A stretch of 64,000 nt of DNA from assembly GCF_000526715.1 (NCBI RefSeq), contig NZ_JAGP01000001.1:930001-994000 (forward strand), written 5' to 3'. Shown here piece after piece: positions 12,072 through 22,441 of the stretch (its first letter is position 1; each line of letters opens with the position of its first letter). Made by a program: the position numbers and the translations under genes. The DNA is from Hydrogenovibrio kuenenii DSM 12350. Lineage in GTDB: Bacteria; Pseudomonadota; Gammaproteobacteria; Thiomicrospirales; Thiomicrospiraceae. The notes under the pieces are model-generated. The model was not told the DNA's origin, did not search any database, and saw only the letters and a list, made by a program, of their open reading frames with translations.

Positions 12072-12278
12072 ATGTCTAAACTTTTAAATTTCTTAACTCT
12101 TGTCGGATTAATCGCTTTTGCTTACTGGATGATTAAACGCTATTTCCGTGAACGTAAATTACGTCAGGAAGGCATTGTGATTGAACAAAAAGGGTTACGT
12201 CCGATTACAGTTTTCAGTATCGTGTTACTGTCTATTTACGGCATCTATCTGGTTGTTCATTTTTGGAACATGGCTTAA
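12072..12278 (+). CDS. small two-helix membrane protein
   Basis: A 68-residue protein I do not recognise. Residues 5-20 and about 46-65 are hydrophobic and probably cross the membrane, with a strongly basic loop (KRYFRERKLRQEG) between them. The ATG lacks a clear Shine-Dalgarno. Its stop overlaps the 3' end of the convergent btuF by 4 bases. It is separated from kdsB by a copy of the dispersed repeat, so co-transcription with the lpxK-kdsB genes is possible but uncertain. Confidence 0.6.
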   Translation: MSKLLNFLTLVGLIAFAYWMIKRYFRERKLRQEGIVIEQKGLRPITVFSIVLLSIYGIYLVVHFWNMA

Positions 12279-13147
12279 CGATCAGAGCGTTGTTTGGCGT
12301 AAACCTTTCTTGCCGTATTCACTTGGGCGCATAGCTGCGGCAAAGCTTCGATGAAACGTTCAGTAGGGCGTTGATATAAATCACTGTTCCCCCCAATAAT
12401 TTGATGATTTTTTACAGCCTGTAGCATTGGAAAAGCTTGCCAATCTTTACGCCAAATCTTCTGATTGTGCTTAGGCCCTCCCATCAAAATCATTTGCGGA
12501 TTTTTCATCAAAATACTTTCCATATTGACTTGTGGGGCGATTGGCGCCAAATCTTCAAAAACGTTCTGGGCACCGCATAAAGCCAACCCTTGGCTAATAA
12601 ACTGTTGTCGATTGATGGTAATTAGAGGTTGATTCCATACTTCATAAAAAACGGTGACAGGTTTTTTATCTGAATACTTCTGTCGTAAAAAATTCAATCG
12701 ATGACGTAATGCTTGTGCAGTGGAAAAGGCATGTTGCTGTGTTCCTGCTCGGCGGCCAATTTCCTCAATATTATTGGGAATGTCATTGAGTGTTTGAATG
12801 CTGGAAACAAATACGCTTAACCCAAGATCTTTTAAACGTTTTAAATCTTGGGGTTTGATCGATGCTTGCCAAGCTAAAATTAAGTTTGGTTTTAAAGCGA
12901 TAATTTGCTCAAAATTCAAATGGAAGGCATCCCCCACTTTAGGGAGTTGTTTTACCTGAGAAGGGTAGTTGGAATAGGTATCGACGCCCACTAAATCTTT
13001 ACCAGCGCCAGCAGAAAAAACCATTTCAGTTAAATGTGGTGATAGGGAGATAATGCGAAAGGCTTTGTCTTCAGCATGAGATAGTCCGCCAAAGCTTAGT
13101 AAGTACACTAAAGCCAAAGATCGAACAAAGCTTCGCAAAGAAATCAT
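12275..13147 (-). CDS. btuF: cobalamin-binding periplasmic protein BtuF-like
   Basis: Exported solute-binding protein of the helical-backbone class that delivers corrinoids to an ABC importer. A signal peptide (residues 1-25, ending GLSHA) precedes RIISLSPHLTEMVFSAGAGKDLVGVD, the standard BtuF/FecB opening; KVGDAFHLNFEQIIALKPNLILAW follows. It is the last gene of the riboswitch-led corrinoid cluster and starts 3 bases after the adenosyltransferase gene. No BtuC or BtuD permease/ATPase is encoded beside it, so these must lie elsewhere or be shared. Specificity for B12 is inferred mainly from context. Confidence 0.85.
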   Translation of the reverse strand: MISLRSFVRSLALVYLLSFGGLSHAEDKAFRIISLSPHLTEMVFSAGAGKDLVGVDTYSNYPSQVKQLPKVGDAFHLNFEQIIALKPNLILAWQASIKPQDLKRLKDLGLSVFVSSIQTLNDIPNNIEEIGRRAGTQQHAFSTAQALRHRLNFLRQKYSDKKPVTVFYEVWNQPLITINRQQFISQGLALCGAQNVFEDLAPIAPQVNMESILMKNPQMILMGGPKHNQKIWRKDWQAFPMLQAVKNHQIIGGNSDLYQRPTERFIEALPQLCAQVNTARKVYAKQRSDR

Positions 13148-13149
13148 CT

Positions 13150-13752
13150 TTAGTAATCCACGCCAACTTGCGCTTTAACACCGCTTTTATAAGCATGTTT
13201 TTCATCATGAATATCGGAAACCGTATCGGCTATTTCTTTGAGTTCTGCGGCAGCAGAGCGCCCAGTAACGACGACATGCTGCATTGCTGGTCGATTTTGC
13301 AGAGCTTTTAATACACGGTCTTTATCAATATAGTCGTAGCTCAAAAGGTAAGTGAGCTCATCTAAGACAACCAAGTCAAAGCTAGGGTCAGAAAGCATGC
13401 GTTCTGCAATCTGCCAACCACGCTCTGAGGTTGCAATATCTTGTTCACGGTTTTGTGTGTCCCAGGTAAAACCATCGCCTAGCACGTGCCATTCACAATT
13501 CTTTTGTGCGCTGAAAAAAGCTTCTTCCCCAGTATCGGTTCGGTTTTTAATAAACTGGCAAACACCGACTTTTAAACCGTGACCGAGTGCACGAGCTACC
13601 ATACCGAAAGCAGAGGTGGACTTGCCCTTGCCATTACCGGTAATCACCAACAAAATACCTTTTTCTATTGTTGCTTTGGCAATAGAGGCATCGATTTGCG
13701 TTTTCTTGCGCTCCATTTTTACCTTGTGGTAGGCGGTTTGTTTATCGGTCAT
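13150..13752 (-). CDS. cobO: corrinoid adenosyltransferase (CobO/BtuR family)
   Basis: Transfers the adenosyl group of ATP to cob(I)alamin or cobinamide. The 200-residue protein has the family P-loop TGNGKGKSTSAFGM (about residues 37-50), then FSAQKNCEWHVLGDGFTWDTQ and LVVLDELTYLLSYDYID, all characteristic of CobO/CobA/BtuR. Its first bases overlap the end of cobQ by 11 bases, indicating translational coupling. It would supply the adenosylated corrinoid that the upstream riboswitch senses. Confidence 0.93.
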   Translation of the reverse strand: MTDKQTAYHKVKMERKKTQIDASIAKATIEKGILLVITGNGKGKSTSAFGMVARALGHGLKVGVCQFIKNRTDTGEEAFFSAQKNCEWHVLGDGFTWDTQNREQDIATSERGWQIAERMLSDPSFDLVVLDELTYLLSYDYIDKDRVLKALQNRPAMQHVVVTGRSAAAELKEIADTVSDIHDEKHAYKSGVKAQVGVDY

Positions 13753-15265
13753 TATTAACTCCCAGTATTTTAAATAGTTTGCCTAGGTCTAAATTAGATT
13801 CGATTGTATCAGCCAATCTATCTAATTGTGAGAGGCGTTGTTGATCAGCGTCAAAAGAGTGGACAGTGTCATCTACAAACCAATCATGGTTTTGATTTTG
13901 TGTTGCCCACGCCATCAAGTGATTCAGCGATTCAGGCTGGTCGAAGATACCGTGTAAATAGCTGACGAAAATTTGATTGTCTTGACTGAAACCGCCTTCG
14001 ACTTTGCCATCACTTAGCTGAATGGCCGGCTTCAGCATATCGAGTTCAGTTTGACCACAATGGATTTCATAGCCCGCAACGCTTGCTGCGTTTTCACCCA
14101 TAAAATGCCCCGTTTGTTTTTGTAGAACCTTTTCTTTCATTAAGGTGGTTTCATAATCTAATAAGCCAAATCCTTGTTGACTCAAGTTGTCGGATTCTAT
14201 GCGATGAGGGTCGTGAATGGCTTTGCCCAGCATTTGAAGGCCGCCACAAATACCGATGACTTTGCCGCCATAACGAAGGTGGTGATTGATATGGTTTTCC
14301 CAGCCTTGATCTTTTAGCCACTGCATGTCAAAAGCGACATTCTTGCTGCCCGGCAGAATAATCAAATCAGCAGACGGAATGGCCTCATTATGCTTCACCC
14401 ATTGAAAGTGAATGTTTGGATGCAATATCAAAGGGTCAAAATCAGTGTGGTTGCTGATGTGAGGCAACAAAGGCGCGATGACATTGATTGAGGTTGCTTG
14501 CTTTTCGGGGGCAGCAAAGTCAATGGCGTCTTCCGCATCTAGATGCAAGCCGTGTAAATAGGGCAGTACCCCCAAAACGGGCTTGCCTGTTTTGGCTTCA
14601 AGCCAGTCCAATCCGTCTTGTAGCAGGCTTAAATCCCCACGGAATTTATTGATGATAAAGCCTTTGATGCGGTTTTGTTCCGACTCGGATAAGCAGGCCA
14701 AAGTGCCGATAATATGAGCGAATACACCGCCTTTATCAATGTCTGCCACAAGCACGACAGGGCAATCGACCCTTTCGGCAAAGCCCATATTGGCGATATC
14801 GCCTTGGCGAAGGTTGATTTCGGCAGGGCTGCCTGCGCCTTCAGTCAGAATCCAGTCGTATTGGCTTTGTAGTACTTGAAAAGAATCTTGTACGGCTTTT
14901 GCCGCTGTTGGTTTGTATTGATGATAATTCAATGCATTGTAATTGCCGATGCTATGGCCTTGAATGATGACCTGAGCACCGACATCGGAATTGGGTTTGA
15001 GAAGCACGGGGTTCATGTGTACACTGGTTTGCACGCCAGCGGCAAAGGCTTGTAGTGCTTGCGCACGTCCAATCTCACCGCCATCATCCGTTACTGCACT
15101 GTTCAATGCCATGTTTTGCGGCTTGAACGGAGCAACGGATAAACCTTGTCGAGCCAAAGCCCGACAAAGCCCTGCCACCAATGTACTTTTCCCTACATCA
15201 GACGTACAGCCTTGAATCATTAAGCAACGAGAAGGGTTGCTCGTATTTGATGAGGCTGCCGTCAT
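13742..15265 (-). CDS. cobQ: cobyric acid synthase
   Basis: CobQ (CbiP) amidates four carboxyl groups of adenosylcobyrinic a,c-diamide using glutamine and ATP. The 507 residues comprise an N-terminal dethiobiotin-synthetase-like domain with P-loop GCTSDVGKSTLVAGL and a C-terminal class I glutaminase-like domain with nucleophile region GGKVIGICGGLQMLG and a late SYLHGIFD segment. No other corrin-ring enzymes are present, so here it may work in salvage or remodelling, or the rest of the pathway may be elsewhere. It lies 18 bases after btuB on the same strand. Confidence 0.94.
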   Translation of the reverse strand: MTAASSNTSNPSRCLMIQGCTSDVGKSTLVAGLCRALARQGLSVAPFKPQNMALNSAVTDDGGEIGRAQALQAFAAGVQTSVHMNPVLLKPNSDVGAQVIIQGHSIGNYNALNYHQYKPTAAKAVQDSFQVLQSQYDWILTEGAGSPAEINLRQGDIANMGFAERVDCPVVLVADIDKGGVFAHIIGTLACLSESEQNRIKGFIINKFRGDLSLLQDGLDWLEAKTGKPVLGVLPYLHGLHLDAEDAIDFAAPEKQATSINVIAPLLPHISNHTDFDPLILHPNIHFQWVKHNEAIPSADLIILPGSKNVAFDMQWLKDQGWENHINHHLRYGGKVIGICGGLQMLGKAIHDPHRIESDNLSQQGFGLLDYETTLMKEKVLQKQTGHFMGENAASVAGYEIHCGQTELDMLKPAIQLSDGKVEGGFSQDNQIFVSYLHGIFDQPESLNHLMAWATQNQNHDWFVDDTVHSFDADQQRLSQLDRLADTIESNLDLGKLFKILGVNNDR

Positions 15266-15283: not shown

Positions 15284-17116
15284 TTACAGCTTGCCTCTAA
15301 CACCAACGAACCAAAGAGTTCCACCGTTGTTATAGACGTATTTAGGTGTGACATTATCGCTTTCGTAGCTAGCAACGGCAGGCGTGTAGTCTTCATTGAA
15401 CAGATTTTGGACTTTACCGTAAACAGAAAGATGTTTATTGACTTGGTAGTCAGCAACCAAATCCGTCACACTATAGTTTCCAATATTGGCGCCTTTCTGA
15501 TTAGCTTTGTCATACATGGTGCCGATGTATTTGGTTTGCACACCAATATGCGTTTGACTCAAACCGAAGTAATCAAAAGTTAAATCACCTTGTTGTTCTG
15601 GGCGACGAGCTAGCCATTTGCCGTCTTTGTCTTTTGCCGTTTGTTGGGTGAAGTTTAGAGTGAAATCACTGTTAATCGCATTAATGCTACGCTTATAGCT
15701 TGCTTCTACACCATCATATTTAGAAGTACCATTTTGGTTGTAGTATTTATAGCTACTGTCTGTTACCAACTCGTCTTTGATTTCATTGTTAAAGTAAGTC
15801 AACGTCAATCCAAATAGCCTTAAAGTCGCATCGTAACCTGTTGACGATTCGGGCTTTAGCTTGCTGGTTTGAGTTGATAGGTTGGTTAACTGATACAAAG
15901 ATGGCGCGTTATAGCCGGTTCCGACATTGGCAGAAATGAAGACTTTTGGCATAAGGTGGTATTTTGTACCAATTTTGCCTGTGGTCTTATTATCGAACTG
16001 ATTATATTCGTCATGGCGTAAAGCCTCAGTCACAGTCCAACGTTCGCCAAACAACTGGTTGGTGTTGTTCAAAGATGCAGCTTGATTGTAATAGCTGTTA
16101 CTTTTCTGCAAATCTTCCAGTTGCTTAGACGTTAAAGAAAAATTTGCTTGCTGTTTATCTGCGTAGTGCCAATCGGCTTGTGCGCCAAACTGATTAACCT
16201 TACCTTCATAGACAGAAGAATAAGCGGGATAGCCGCGACGAATATGACTGTCTTGTGCATACAACTTAGTACTCAAATCACCCAATGTCGCTAGATATTG
16301 AATTTGACGTAGGGTACTTTCATAAGTACTAGAAGATGAAGTGTTGGGGGTGCTGTAATCACTTTCCGAGTTGCCTGAACCGTGTTTGATAAAGGCTTCT
16401 AAACGTTGTTGTTTTGTTAGGTTGATACCAAGATTAAAAGACGCTTCCTGCTGCGCAAACGGATCTTTTTCATCACCCGCACCGGAGGTCTTATATTTTT
16501 TGATAGCCGTAAAACCGTCAGTAGATAAATCACTAAAGTTGAATGTGAAATCCACTTTATCGTTTCCTGCACCTAAAGTTGCAGCTAATTTTTTACGGTT
16601 GTTGCTGCCGACTTCAAAATTAACACTGGCTCGTTTTCCGCCTTTTTTGGTAATGATGTTGATGACACCAGCAGAAGCATTGGCACCCCAAACGCCGGAT
16701 TGAGGGCCTTTGATGATTTCAATACGCTCAACATCATCCAACATAATATTGGCAAAGTTAGTCGTGCCGTCCGTTAAAGTCGGGTCATTCAACTGCATAC
16801 CGTTTTGCAGTACCAGAATGTTTTTTCCACCCATACCGCGCATAAACAGGCTGGTTGTCGTTCCCAAACCACCATTGGAATAAGTCGTTAAACCGGGGAC
16901 TTGTCTCATAGCATCTTGCAGCGTTTGGTACTGGTGACTTTCAATGTCTTCTGCGGTAATCACTGTTGTATTGGAGGTAACGCTTTTTAAGCTTTGAGGC
17001 GCGTTATTTGCAGTAACAATCACCGAATCTAAATTGGTCTTTGCTGAGTCAGCCGCGTGTGCTGTTGAAAGCACGGAGAATATAGCTAAAGCTATAGGTG
17101 TTTTTTTAAGGTTCAT
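15284..17116 (-). CDS. btuB: TonB-dependent cobalamin receptor BtuB
   Basis: Outer-membrane beta-barrel receptor, 610 residues from the start chosen here. The frame runs upstream to 17251, but ATG 17116 has GAAGGA before it and gives a clean signal peptide ending AHA. A TonB box-like DSVIVTA follows, then the plug domain (TVITAEDIESHQYQTLQDAMRQVPG; IEIIKGPQSGVWGANASAGVINIITK) and a long barrel ending in the aromatic-rich LWFVGVRGKL. The cobalamin riboswitch upstream and cobQ/cobO/btuF downstream make corrinoid the likely ligand. The SD lies within the 3' arm of a hairpin (17123-17145). Confidence 0.92.
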   Translation of the reverse strand: MNLKKTPIALAIFSVLSTAHAADSAKTNLDSVIVTANNAPQSLKSVTSNTTVITAEDIESHQYQTLQDAMRQVPGLTTYSNGGLGTTTSLFMRGMGGKNILVLQNGMQLNDPTLTDGTTNFANIMLDDVERIEIIKGPQSGVWGANASAGVINIITKKGGKRASVNFEVGSNNRKKLAATLGAGNDKVDFTFNFSDLSTDGFTAIKKYKTSGAGDEKDPFAQQEASFNLGINLTKQQRLEAFIKHGSGNSESDYSTPNTSSSSTYESTLRQIQYLATLGDLSTKLYAQDSHIRRGYPAYSSVYEGKVNQFGAQADWHYADKQQANFSLTSKQLEDLQKSNSYYNQAASLNNTNQLFGERWTVTEALRHDEYNQFDNKTTGKIGTKYHLMPKVFISANVGTGYNAPSLYQLTNLSTQTSKLKPESSTGYDATLRLFGLTLTYFNNEIKDELVTDSSYKYYNQNGTSKYDGVEASYKRSINAINSDFTLNFTQQTAKDKDGKWLARRPEQQGDLTFDYFGLSQTHIGVQTKYIGTMYDKANQKGANIGNYSVTDLVADYQVNKHLSVYGKVQNLFNEDYTPAVASYESDNVTPKYVYNNGGTLWFVGVRGKL

Positions 17117-17122
17117 AATATT

Positions 17123-17145
17123 CCTTCGTAAAATATCTACGAAGG
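17123..17145 (-). promoter_or_regulatory. SD-sequestering hairpin before btuB
   Basis: In the btuB transcript CCTTCGTA and TACGAAGG form a perfect 8-bp stem with loop GAUAUUU. The 3' arm contains the first part of the GAAGGA Shine-Dalgarno, so folding would hide the ribosome site. That it is switched by the riboswitch is inference. Confidence 0.7.
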
Positions 17146-17155
17146 CAACAACGGA

Positions 17156-17173
17156 TCGAAGTGAATACTTCGA
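17156..17173 (-). promoter_or_regulatory. competing hairpin in btuB leader
   Basis: TCGAAGT and ACTTCGA form a perfect 7-bp stem around a 4-base loop. The arms contain the same CGAAG/CTTCG words as the SD hairpin 10 bases downstream, so the two could exchange partners. This is a candidate anti-sequestor. Confidence 0.55.
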
Positions 17174-17249
17174 ACTAAAAAGAGGAAATGGGCGCCAATT
17201 AATAAGCGTCAAAAAATCTCTTTTTCCGTATTGCCCACCGCAATCGGTC

Positions 17250-17277
17250 AAAAATGGGTTTCAATTTAATTGAAACC
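17250..17277 (-). terminator. possible riboswitch terminator
   Basis: GGTTTCAATT and AATTGAAACC are exact complements around a single base (17257-17277). On the btuB strand the stem is followed at once by CATTTTTG. It begins only about 6 bases after the riboswitch 3' end, the place expected for an expression-platform terminator. The stem is AT-rich, so its strength is uncertain. Confidence 0.55.
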
Positions 17278-17282
17278 TTTCT

Positions 17283-17475
17283 TTCTGGCCGGTATCCGGG
17301 CTGAAGAACAATTTCCTAACCCCTTCTCGGAAGCTTATGTGAGCATCTCCAATGGGTTTCTATTAGGTCTTTTCTATCACCGTTGCGGGGGCAGCACTCG
17401 ACTAGATGCCTATTTCAACATCGCACGAGTTTCCCGTTTAACTTGTTGGATGTTACCAAGCAAGCACCAGAAAAC
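17283..17475 (-). promoter_or_regulatory. cobalamin riboswitch upstream of btuB
   Basis: On the minus strand this region contains the B12-box core GCTGCCCCCGCAACG (17381-17395), with upstream AAACGGGAAACTCGTGC, and the 3' segment AGCCCGGATACCGGCC (17287-17302). Order and spacing match cobalamin riboswitches, which lower expression when adenosylcobalamin is plentiful. Ends are approximate. It is followed by a hairpin with a U-run, a second hairpin and an SD hairpin before btuB. Confidence 0.95.
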
Positions 17476-17539
17476 GGCTATTCTACTAAAGATCAGTGCG
17501 AGGTAAAGAGGCAAATCGGCAAAATTGATTGAATTGATG

Positions 17540-21532: not shown

Positions 21533-22441
21533 TCAATGCGGTGAAAACTGCTCACTAACAATTCTACCCACCTGTTCAATCACATGATTTTTAATTTCAT
21601 AAGGCTCTTTACTGCCAGTATAGTAGACCGCGATGAGAATAGGGTTGTCGGCATCCGGCCATACAATCGCAATGTCGCTAGTGGCGCCATTATCACCAGA
21701 CCCGGTTTTATCGCCAATAGGCCAGTGTGTAGGAATACCTGCACGAAGTTTGTTTGTGCCGGTTGTATTGTTGAGCATCCATTGTGTTAGTTGATTTCTT
21801 GATGCAGGGGATAGGGCATTGCCAATCAGAATTTTTTTCATACTTGTTAGCATGGCATTGGGCGTGGTGGTATCTCTGTCATCATTTGGAAGGTTGGTGT
21901 TGAGGTAGGGTTCGGTTCTGTCAATACGAGTGACTGTGTCACCAATGCTTCTCATAAAGGTGGTAAGCCCCATCGGCCCTCTGGCAGGTTCGAATAAAAG
22001 GTTAGCAGCGGTATTGTCACTATACTCCATTGCGGCGGCGGCAAGTTGGGCAATGGTCATTTTGCCTTCATTGCCTTGCATATGTTTGCGAGTAACGGGT
22101 GCATACTCCAATAAACTGGATTTGGAATAGGTGACTACACGATTTAGTTTTTCGTCTTTAGAGTCTACTTTAGCCAAAACGGCAGCAGTGAGCAGAAATT
22201 TAAAGGTACTGCATAGCGCAAAGCGTTCATTGCCTCGGTGGTGTAATTGGGTGCCTGTGTTGGCATCCCAAACGGCAACACCAAGTTTGCCACCGTAGTT
22301 TTTTTCCAGTTCAGATATTTGCTGAGAAAAATATGTTTGTGCATTTTGAGCATTATCAGCTTGGGTGAATGCAGAATAACAAGCCAGCCATAAAGTTAAG
22401 AAGGCTACTATCGTTCCTTTGATAGTTCGTATCGATTCCAT
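21533..22441 (-). CDS. class A beta-lactamase
   Basis: Exported serine beta-lactamase, 302 residues. The signal peptide ends near FTQA (27-28). All class A motifs are intact: STFK with nucleophile Ser78 and Lys81 (Ambler 70/73), SDN (130-132), an omega loop RTEPYLN with the general-base Glu (166), and KTG (234-236). Cys precedes the nucleophile (Ambler 69), but no Cys follows KTGSG, so the 69-238 disulfide of KPC/SME carbapenemases is absent. The sequence resembles environmental Burkholderia/Xanthomonas-type chromosomal enzymes in feel. No LysR-type ampR and no mobile element is adjacent. GGAGG precedes the start. Confidence 0.95.
   Translation of the reverse strand: MESIRTIKGTIVAFLTLWLACYSAFTQADNAQNAQTYFSQQISELEKNYGGKLGVAVWDANTGTQLHHRGNERFALCSTFKFLLTAAVLAKVDSKDEKLNRVVTYSKSSLLEYAPVTRKHMQGNEGKMTIAQLAAAAMEYSDNTAANLLFEPARGPMGLTTFMRSIGDTVTRIDRTEPYLNTNLPNDDRDTTTPNAMLTSMKKILIGNALSPASRNQLTQWMLNNTTGTNKLRAGIPTHWPIGDKTGSGDNGATSDIAIVWPDADNPILIAVYYTGSKEPYEIKNHVIEQVGRIVSEQFSPH

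Follow-up and report, generated by a model that had tools for sequence, protein, structure and literature searches.

A predicted cobalamin riboswitch upstream of btuB in Hydrogenovibrio kuenenii, with the 3' arm of its kissing hairpin as a candidate SD-freeing strand

The btuB locus and its leader

We analysed a stretch of 64,000 nucleotides from Hydrogenovibrio kuenenii DSM 12350 (contig NZ_JAGP01000001.1, positions 930,001 to 994,000), which we call the window. On its minus strand, a gene for a TonB-dependent receptor lies behind a leader that holds a full-length cobalamin aptamer (Table 1). The match spans positions 1-189 of the 189 in the RF00174 model, scored 90.6 bits (E 4.1e-21; gathering score 31.5) and is the sole match in the source genome. 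Based on the full aptamer and its C-rich L5 loop we identify the leader as a cobalamin riboswitch, with corrinoid binding predicted. The receptor gene that follows is read as BtuB from its Pfam matches. A contig scan returned two loci; the closest named relative found was Hydrogenovibrio sp. JE_KL2, with a BtuB of 82% identity, and the other locus, from a deltaproteobacterial bin, matched at 29%. Folding stability exceeds chance for the whole leader (z -5.4; none of 100 shuffles as good) and for three of its sub-regions (z -4.8, -4.1 and -4.7; none of 200 shuffles each).

Table 1. Features of the btuB locus, in coordinates of the window. Names of the downstream corrinoid genes (12275-15265) are readings of Pfam matches.
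Feature	Coordinates	Strand	Basis or remark
Periplasmic binding protein, BtuF-like	12275-13147	-	PF01497
Corrinoid adenosyltransferase	13150-13752	-	PF02572
Cobyric-acid-synthase-like	13742-15265	-	PF07685/PF01656
btuB-like TonB-dependent receptor, 610 aa	15284-17116	-	PF00593 and PF07715, translation; ATG start at 17116
SD, AAGGA	17126-17122	-	Hidden by the SD hairpin
SD-hiding (sequestor) hairpin, CCTTCGTA (17145-17138) / TACGAAGG (17130-17123)	17123-17145	-	Covariation
Putative antisequestor strand, CCGTTGTTGCC	17144-17154	-	Complementary to P13 3' arm GGCAATACGG (17235-17226)
Hairpin A, TCGAAGT-ATTC-ACTTCGA	17156-17173	-	7 pairs; lineage-specific arm
A/U helix, AAAAAGAG (17225-17218) with CUCUUUUU (17184-17177)	17177-17225	-	In MFE
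P13 hairpin, CCGATTGC-GGTGG-GCAAT-A-CGG	17226-17247	-	MFE -8.5 kcal/mol alone
L13 region, GCGGTGGGC	17241-17233	-	Complementary to L5
UUUUU run	17250-17254	-	After the spacer hairpin; can pair with P1 3' strand CAGAAA
Spacer hairpin (palindrome), GGTTTCAATT-A-AATTGAAACC	17257-17277	-	9 pairs, loop of 3, -7.9 kcal/mol
L5 C-rich loop, GCCCCCGC	17385-17392	-	Predicted kissing partner of L13
Cobalamin riboswitch aptamer (RF00174), full length	17270-17486	-	cmscan

For comparison we used the leaders of related genomes. A search at the level of the order gave 62 genomes, all from one family, and the riboswitch was found in 58 of them and not in the other four (G024, G066, G070 and G073); searches over 40 genomes used stricter filters, with which weak matches can be lost. 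The set includes the species of the window (G000) and its two sister species (G001 and G010). P13 was located by sequence patterns that were loosened after inspection of the leaders that failed, and none of the 58 was dropped. The SD was located in 56 leaders; two more (G007 and G077) were added later to make 58, and in G077 the contig stops within the SD hairpin.

P13, the SD hairpin and a third strand

The SD hairpin, P13, the complementarity of a third strand and their conservation were, like the aptamer, established in silico. A first-pass annotation, made from the letters of the window alone, had described an SD-hiding hairpin ahead of btuB as a point of translational control. This hairpin is present downstream of the full aptamer, and the aptamer together with covariation supports the idea of control at this site. 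In 57 leaders with 19 distinct arm pairs, 138 of 152 cells were paired and 21 cells carried a double change, and none of 500 shuffles reached any of three measures. One leader (G008) was mis-anchored in this test, as well as in the spacer-complementarity and partner-permutation tests described below, and is absent from the covariation test of the inner anti-P13 pairs.

P13, which the annotation had overlooked, sits downstream of the palindrome and upstream of hairpin A and the SD hairpin. It occurs with a GGNGG loop in all 58 leaders, as GCGGNGGGC in 56 and with a changed closing pair, CGGTGGGT, in two (G056 and G065); the invariance of the loop Gs is partly built in because the search patterns contain them. 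Covariation in the P13 core amounts to one double change (94 of 500 shuffles were as good). The L13 sequence GCGG-U-GGGC complements L5 except for one bulged base, a statement of sequence complementarity only. The identity of this bulged base varies over the 58 leaders: 44 have T, 10 have A and 4 have C. L5 reads CTGCCCCCGCAA in every one of them (GCTGCCCCCGCAA in 55 and ACTGCCCCCGCAA in 3), with CCCCC identical throughout.

The third strand, a putative antisequestor that the first pass did not see, overlaps the SD hairpin by CC (17145-17144). With the P13 3' arm it forms 10 pairs around one bulge at -13.4 kcal/mol, and none of 200 shuffles was as good. Across the family, the P13 3' arm pairs most strongly with the counterpart of this strand, a variant of CCGTTGTTGCC in other leaders, which reaches into the 5' arm of the SD hairpin; this holds for all 56 leaders with a located SD and, with G007 and G077 included, for 58 of 58. 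The pairing was matched by at most 5% of a leader's own shuffled targets in 47 of the 56; the nine that did not beat 95% of shuffles are G011, G013, G016, G017, G028, G055, G062, G071 and G076. The mean energy of the anti-P13 pairing over 36 distinct combinations is -12.1 kcal/mol, compared with -3.7 kcal/mol for the 13 bases just upstream.

We also asked whether the two strands change together. When partners were permuted among the 36 combinations, 4 of 5000 permutations were as good (mean -11.3 kcal/mol), and after collapsing to the 11 distinct arms 137 of 2000 were. The arm GGCAATGGTGG pairs at -12.4 kcal/mol with its own partners and at -8.9 with others. For two of the 11 arms the order is reversed, with the own partner giving the weaker pairing: GGCAATTGGGC (-9.5 vs -11.3) and GGCAAACGGAG (-11.7 vs -12.2). 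Covariation by column is thin because the strands hardly vary: the inner five pairs show no double change (500 of 500 shuffles as good) and the outer three show four double-change cells (20 of 500 shuffles). The case for the predicted anti-P13 helix rests first on position, energy and conservation, and second on co-change. Outside the family we used 14 leaders from 12 genomes of other families, not all of them btuB leaders, with a test that was not tuned to them; none of the nine with the GCGGNGGGC motif pairs better than chance ahead of the SD. In one genome of this set (G040) the pairing was matched by only 5% of shuffles, at a site inside the coding region.

Predicted folds were compared with P13 enforced or with its 5' arm blocked. 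The mean unpaired probability of the SD was 0.17 with P13 enforced and 0.30 with the arm blocked. Blocking raised SD accessibility in 53 of 57 leaders and gave no rise in four; this modest change is as expected for an overlap of two bases. Folded without constraint and without the aptamer, the expression platform of the window contains the 10-pair anti-P13 helix, as does a shorter stretch. The A/U helix is an arm of the domain that the anti-P13 helix encloses, and both of its strands are kept in G001 and G010. Without constraint, 31 of 57 leaders formed at least seven anti-P13 pairs. Blocking the P13 5' arm brought the number to 48 of 57, and the sister G001 is among the nine that stayed below seven pairs even then. 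Of the two ensembles, whose constraints are not symmetric, the P13-enforced one had the greater stability in 53 of 57 leaders. When the whole leader was folded with the aptamer, neither P13 nor the anti-P13 helix was present, the SD hairpin was closed and the L5 strand was taken up in a conventional helix with the P13 region. The folding programs model neither a kissing loop nor the ligand, and therefore the computed energies by themselves cannot decide between the two states.

The proposed switch and its alternatives

We consider it likely that the leader is an OFF-type translational cobalamin riboswitch that decides at one point only, and that the P13 3' arm and the antisequestor strand take part in this decision. 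With B12 bound, L5 GCCCCCGC would kiss L13 around the one bulged base and keep P13 closed; this would leave CCGTTGTTGCC free, the adjoining SD hairpin would close, and translation of btuB would be off. Without B12, P13 would open and its 3' arm GGCAATACGG would form a helix with CCGTTGTTGCC that occupies the two Cs capping the GG of the SD, so that the SD hairpin would be weakened and translation would be on. The palindrome with its U-run would be a spacer hairpin between P1 and P13, and hairpin A would be an arm within the domain that the helix of the P13 3' arm closes off. The ligand dependence, the direction of the switch and the effect on ribosome binding are what we infer in this scheme. 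If it is true, the strand that exposes the SD in an entire bacterial family is the 3' arm of the kissing hairpin, and the antiterminator logic of Priestia megaterium metE (PMC10653944) extends to translation in a compact, testable three-strand switch.

Transcription could also be affected downstream of this switch. In translation-coupled Rho-dependent termination, the sole RNA switch would be at the SD and Rho would stop transcription downstream when translation is off. PMC11162775 reports Rho-dependent termination under riboswitch control for Escherichia coli btuB, and therefore effects at the mRNA level are known without a second RNA switch. We regard such coupling in the window as plausible, at somewhat less than even chances; it is compatible with the single-decision translational switch, and both can hold together.

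Another reading needs no third strand. If L5-L13 docking itself blocked the ribosome, as in env8, the pairing of the P13 3' arm would be incidental. The extensive complementarity between L5 and P13 in the whole-leader fold is in line with this, and the RBS of env8 is located in the P13 loop (PMC10907184). However, about 100 bases separate P13 from the SD downstream of it in the window, and all 58 leaders preserve the third-strand complementarity. We consider occlusion by docking alone to be unlikely.

The first-pass annotation had gone further and proposed two successive control points behind one aptamer: a ligand-dependent intrinsic terminator at the palindrome, and an SD switch in which hairpin A and the SD hairpin exchange strands through shared CGAAG/CTTCG arms. 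Platforms that combine transcriptional and translational control exist as a predicted class (PMC2258182). The palindrome and U-run are in place, separated by CA, and fit a simple terminator pattern. A scan with this pattern called the palindrome once on each strand, two sites in all (shuffle mean 0.6), and the minus-strand site (scan loops of 3-8), the sole one on that strand, is about 130 bases from the SD. However, the hairpin has three G-C pairs and a gap of two bases before the Us, and its -7.9 kcal/mol compares with -37.3 kcal/mol for a stem that resembles a terminator and closely precedes the leader (17591-17540). It was formed in every inspected fold of the window, where no competing partner appeared, and therefore there is no visible cause of ligand dependence. 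Even weak termination here would not obviously amount to a switch, apart from the clade-specific reading given below. A terminator at this site is not conserved among the 58 leaders: five Us follow the hairpin between P1 and P13 in the window only, four in the two sister species, which have CTTTTG at this position, and between 0 and 3 in the remaining 55. The segment that separates P1 from P13 varies widely in sequence; its fold reaches at least -3 kcal/mol in 49 of 58 leaders, and in the other nine it is weaker or unfolded. In G064 it is 201 bases long, and much of it is a repeat found elsewhere in the same genome. Because the palindrome is variable, weak, always formed in the inspected folds and followed by an unconserved U-run, we rejected a ligand-dependent terminator there, and the hairpin is most likely a variable spacer between P1 and P13.

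The proposed exchange between hairpin A and the SD hairpin is not supported. Hairpin A with its seven pairs is present in the window, and so are the arms that it shares with the SD hairpin. The sharing is at the level of chance: the spacer that holds hairpin A pairs with the two arms of the SD hairpin at -5.4 and -6.4 kcal/mol, which 22 and 28 of 100 shuffles match. Covariation in the two hairpins had been suggested as a check, and it is seen in the SD hairpin; hairpin A is recognisable by eye only in the three close species G000, G001 and G010. In the two sisters, both arms of hairpin A are replaced together (TCGAAG/CTTCGA by TCGGG/CCCGA) and the SD hairpin keeps CCTTCG/CGAAGG. The pairing of the hairpin A 3' arm with the SD is lost there (-6.4 to -2.9 kcal/mol). 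That of the 5' arm with the anti-SD strand is not weaker (-5.4 to -6.6 and -6.3), which favours an exchange, but the original CGAAG is gone and other letters are apparently used. In all three species the intact hairpins (-8.1 to -12.3 kcal/mol) are more stable than either swap. More generally, complementarity of the spacer beyond 95% of shuffles was seen in 0 of 57 leaders for the anti-SD arm and 2 of 57 for the SD arm. We rejected the swap, as hairpin A is recognisable in three species only and its arms changed without a change in the SD hairpin. Given that both arms changed beside an unaltered SD hairpin, hairpin A is probably a genuine structure, without a link to the SD hairpin through shared letters. 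For the 5' arm of the SD hairpin, the P13 3' arm has the stronger support as a partner.

Together, these data do not support a dual RNA switch, which we think very unlikely. Equally improbable in our judgement is a clade-specific two-point switch, in which the U-run (UUUUUG; CUUUUG in the sisters) would pair with the P1 3' strand without B12, lengthening the spacer hairpin and opening P1, and would be freed when P1 closes with B12, turning the hairpin into a weak ligand-dependent terminator ahead of the P13 switch; this would put two successive control points behind one aptamer, recently evolved in a clade of three species. The preferred reading, a single switch at the SD, makes the locus largely ordinary in kind, with a predicted family-wide three-strand switch in place of the swap first proposed. 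On this reading, a hairpin that resembles a terminator can serve as no more than a spacer between P1 and P13, and the case advises caution when the mechanism of a riboswitch is predicted from a single sequence.

Comparison with known systems

A search of one literature collection found no paper on riboswitches in Hydrogenovibrio, nor on cobalamin riboswitches in Thiomicrospira. The older comparative work on B12 elements by Vitreschak and co-workers in 2003 may already contain this type. By its predicted aptamer, kissing P13, SD hairpin and antisequestor, the leader is a member of the translational P13-type corrinoid riboswitches.

The leader shares its aptamer family and target gene with E. 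coli btuB. As described in PMC11162775, the E. coli leader also has P13 in a pseudoknot with the aptamer and a separate SD-hiding hairpin (P14), and its ON-state helix occupies the anti-SD strand. By contrast, it is without the GCGGNGGGC motif, and its presumed P13 3' arm, by our own reading, pairs with the anti-SD region at -3.6 kcal/mol, with 264 of 500 shuffles as good. Because this is at the level of chance, the strand that frees the SD in E. coli seems to be a different one.

The corrinoid riboswitch of P. megaterium metE is alike in that a kissing loop stabilises P13. There, mutagenesis demonstrated the same use of the P13 3' arm in an antiterminator, and the authors contrast this logic with models of other platforms (PMC10653944). 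The downstream hairpin of metE is a transcription terminator, whereas that of the window is an SD hairpin. In env8, L5 and L13 also kiss, and PMC10907184 reports that a bulge of one or two bases in the inter-loop helix makes the kiss ligand-dependent; L13 of the window likewise pairs with L5 around one bulged base. The two differ in that env8 carries its RBS within the P13 loop, whereas the window leader has its SD in a hairpin of its own.

The Shine-Dalgarno hairpin and its enlarged loops

The hairpin that hides the SD has a loop of about 200 bases in leaders L024 and L018 (genomes G002 and G009, of the same order), and most of this loop is a dispersed repeat with more copies across both genomes. 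Despite the size of the loop, complementarity of the arms CCTTCGTT/AACGAAGG is kept in both leaders. Because the arms remain complementary around so large a loop, these sequences may serve as a natural test, one that suggests the stem matters.

Predicted pairing of aptamer strands with downstream elements

In the predicted fold of the window's whole leader, a single helix joins the strand of aptamer loop L5 to the loop (L13) and part of the 5' arm of hairpin P13, with CCGCAA:UUGCGG pairing the L5 strand with the arm portion. Thus, the L5/P13 complementarity extends past the loops. The 3' strand of the closing stem P1 (CAGAAA) is also predicted to be able to pair with the U-run behind the palindrome, and CTTTTG is kept at the U-run site in both sister species.

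Repeats around other leaders and a separate ORF

A repeat of about 160 bases (L074), self-matching on both strands, lies upstream of the riboswitch in G002; counting both strands, it has 30 matches in G002, 29 in G009 and 6 in G064. In L072 (G064), 201 bases with strong self-folding separate the B12 box from P13, occupying the position of the window's palindrome between P1 and P13, and partly match other sites of that genome. Elsewhere in the window, an ORF reads, by eye from its translation, like a putative class A beta-lactamase.

Coordinates of the features discussed
Feature	Location	Position	Size
L5 strand	window	17385-17392	
L13 and part of P13 5' arm	window	17233-17247	
P1 3' strand	window	17282-17287	
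U-run	window	17250-17254	
ORF	window	21533-22441	302 aa
Repeat (L074) upstream of the riboswitch	G002, contig 1 (C1)	1179152-1179312	~160 bases
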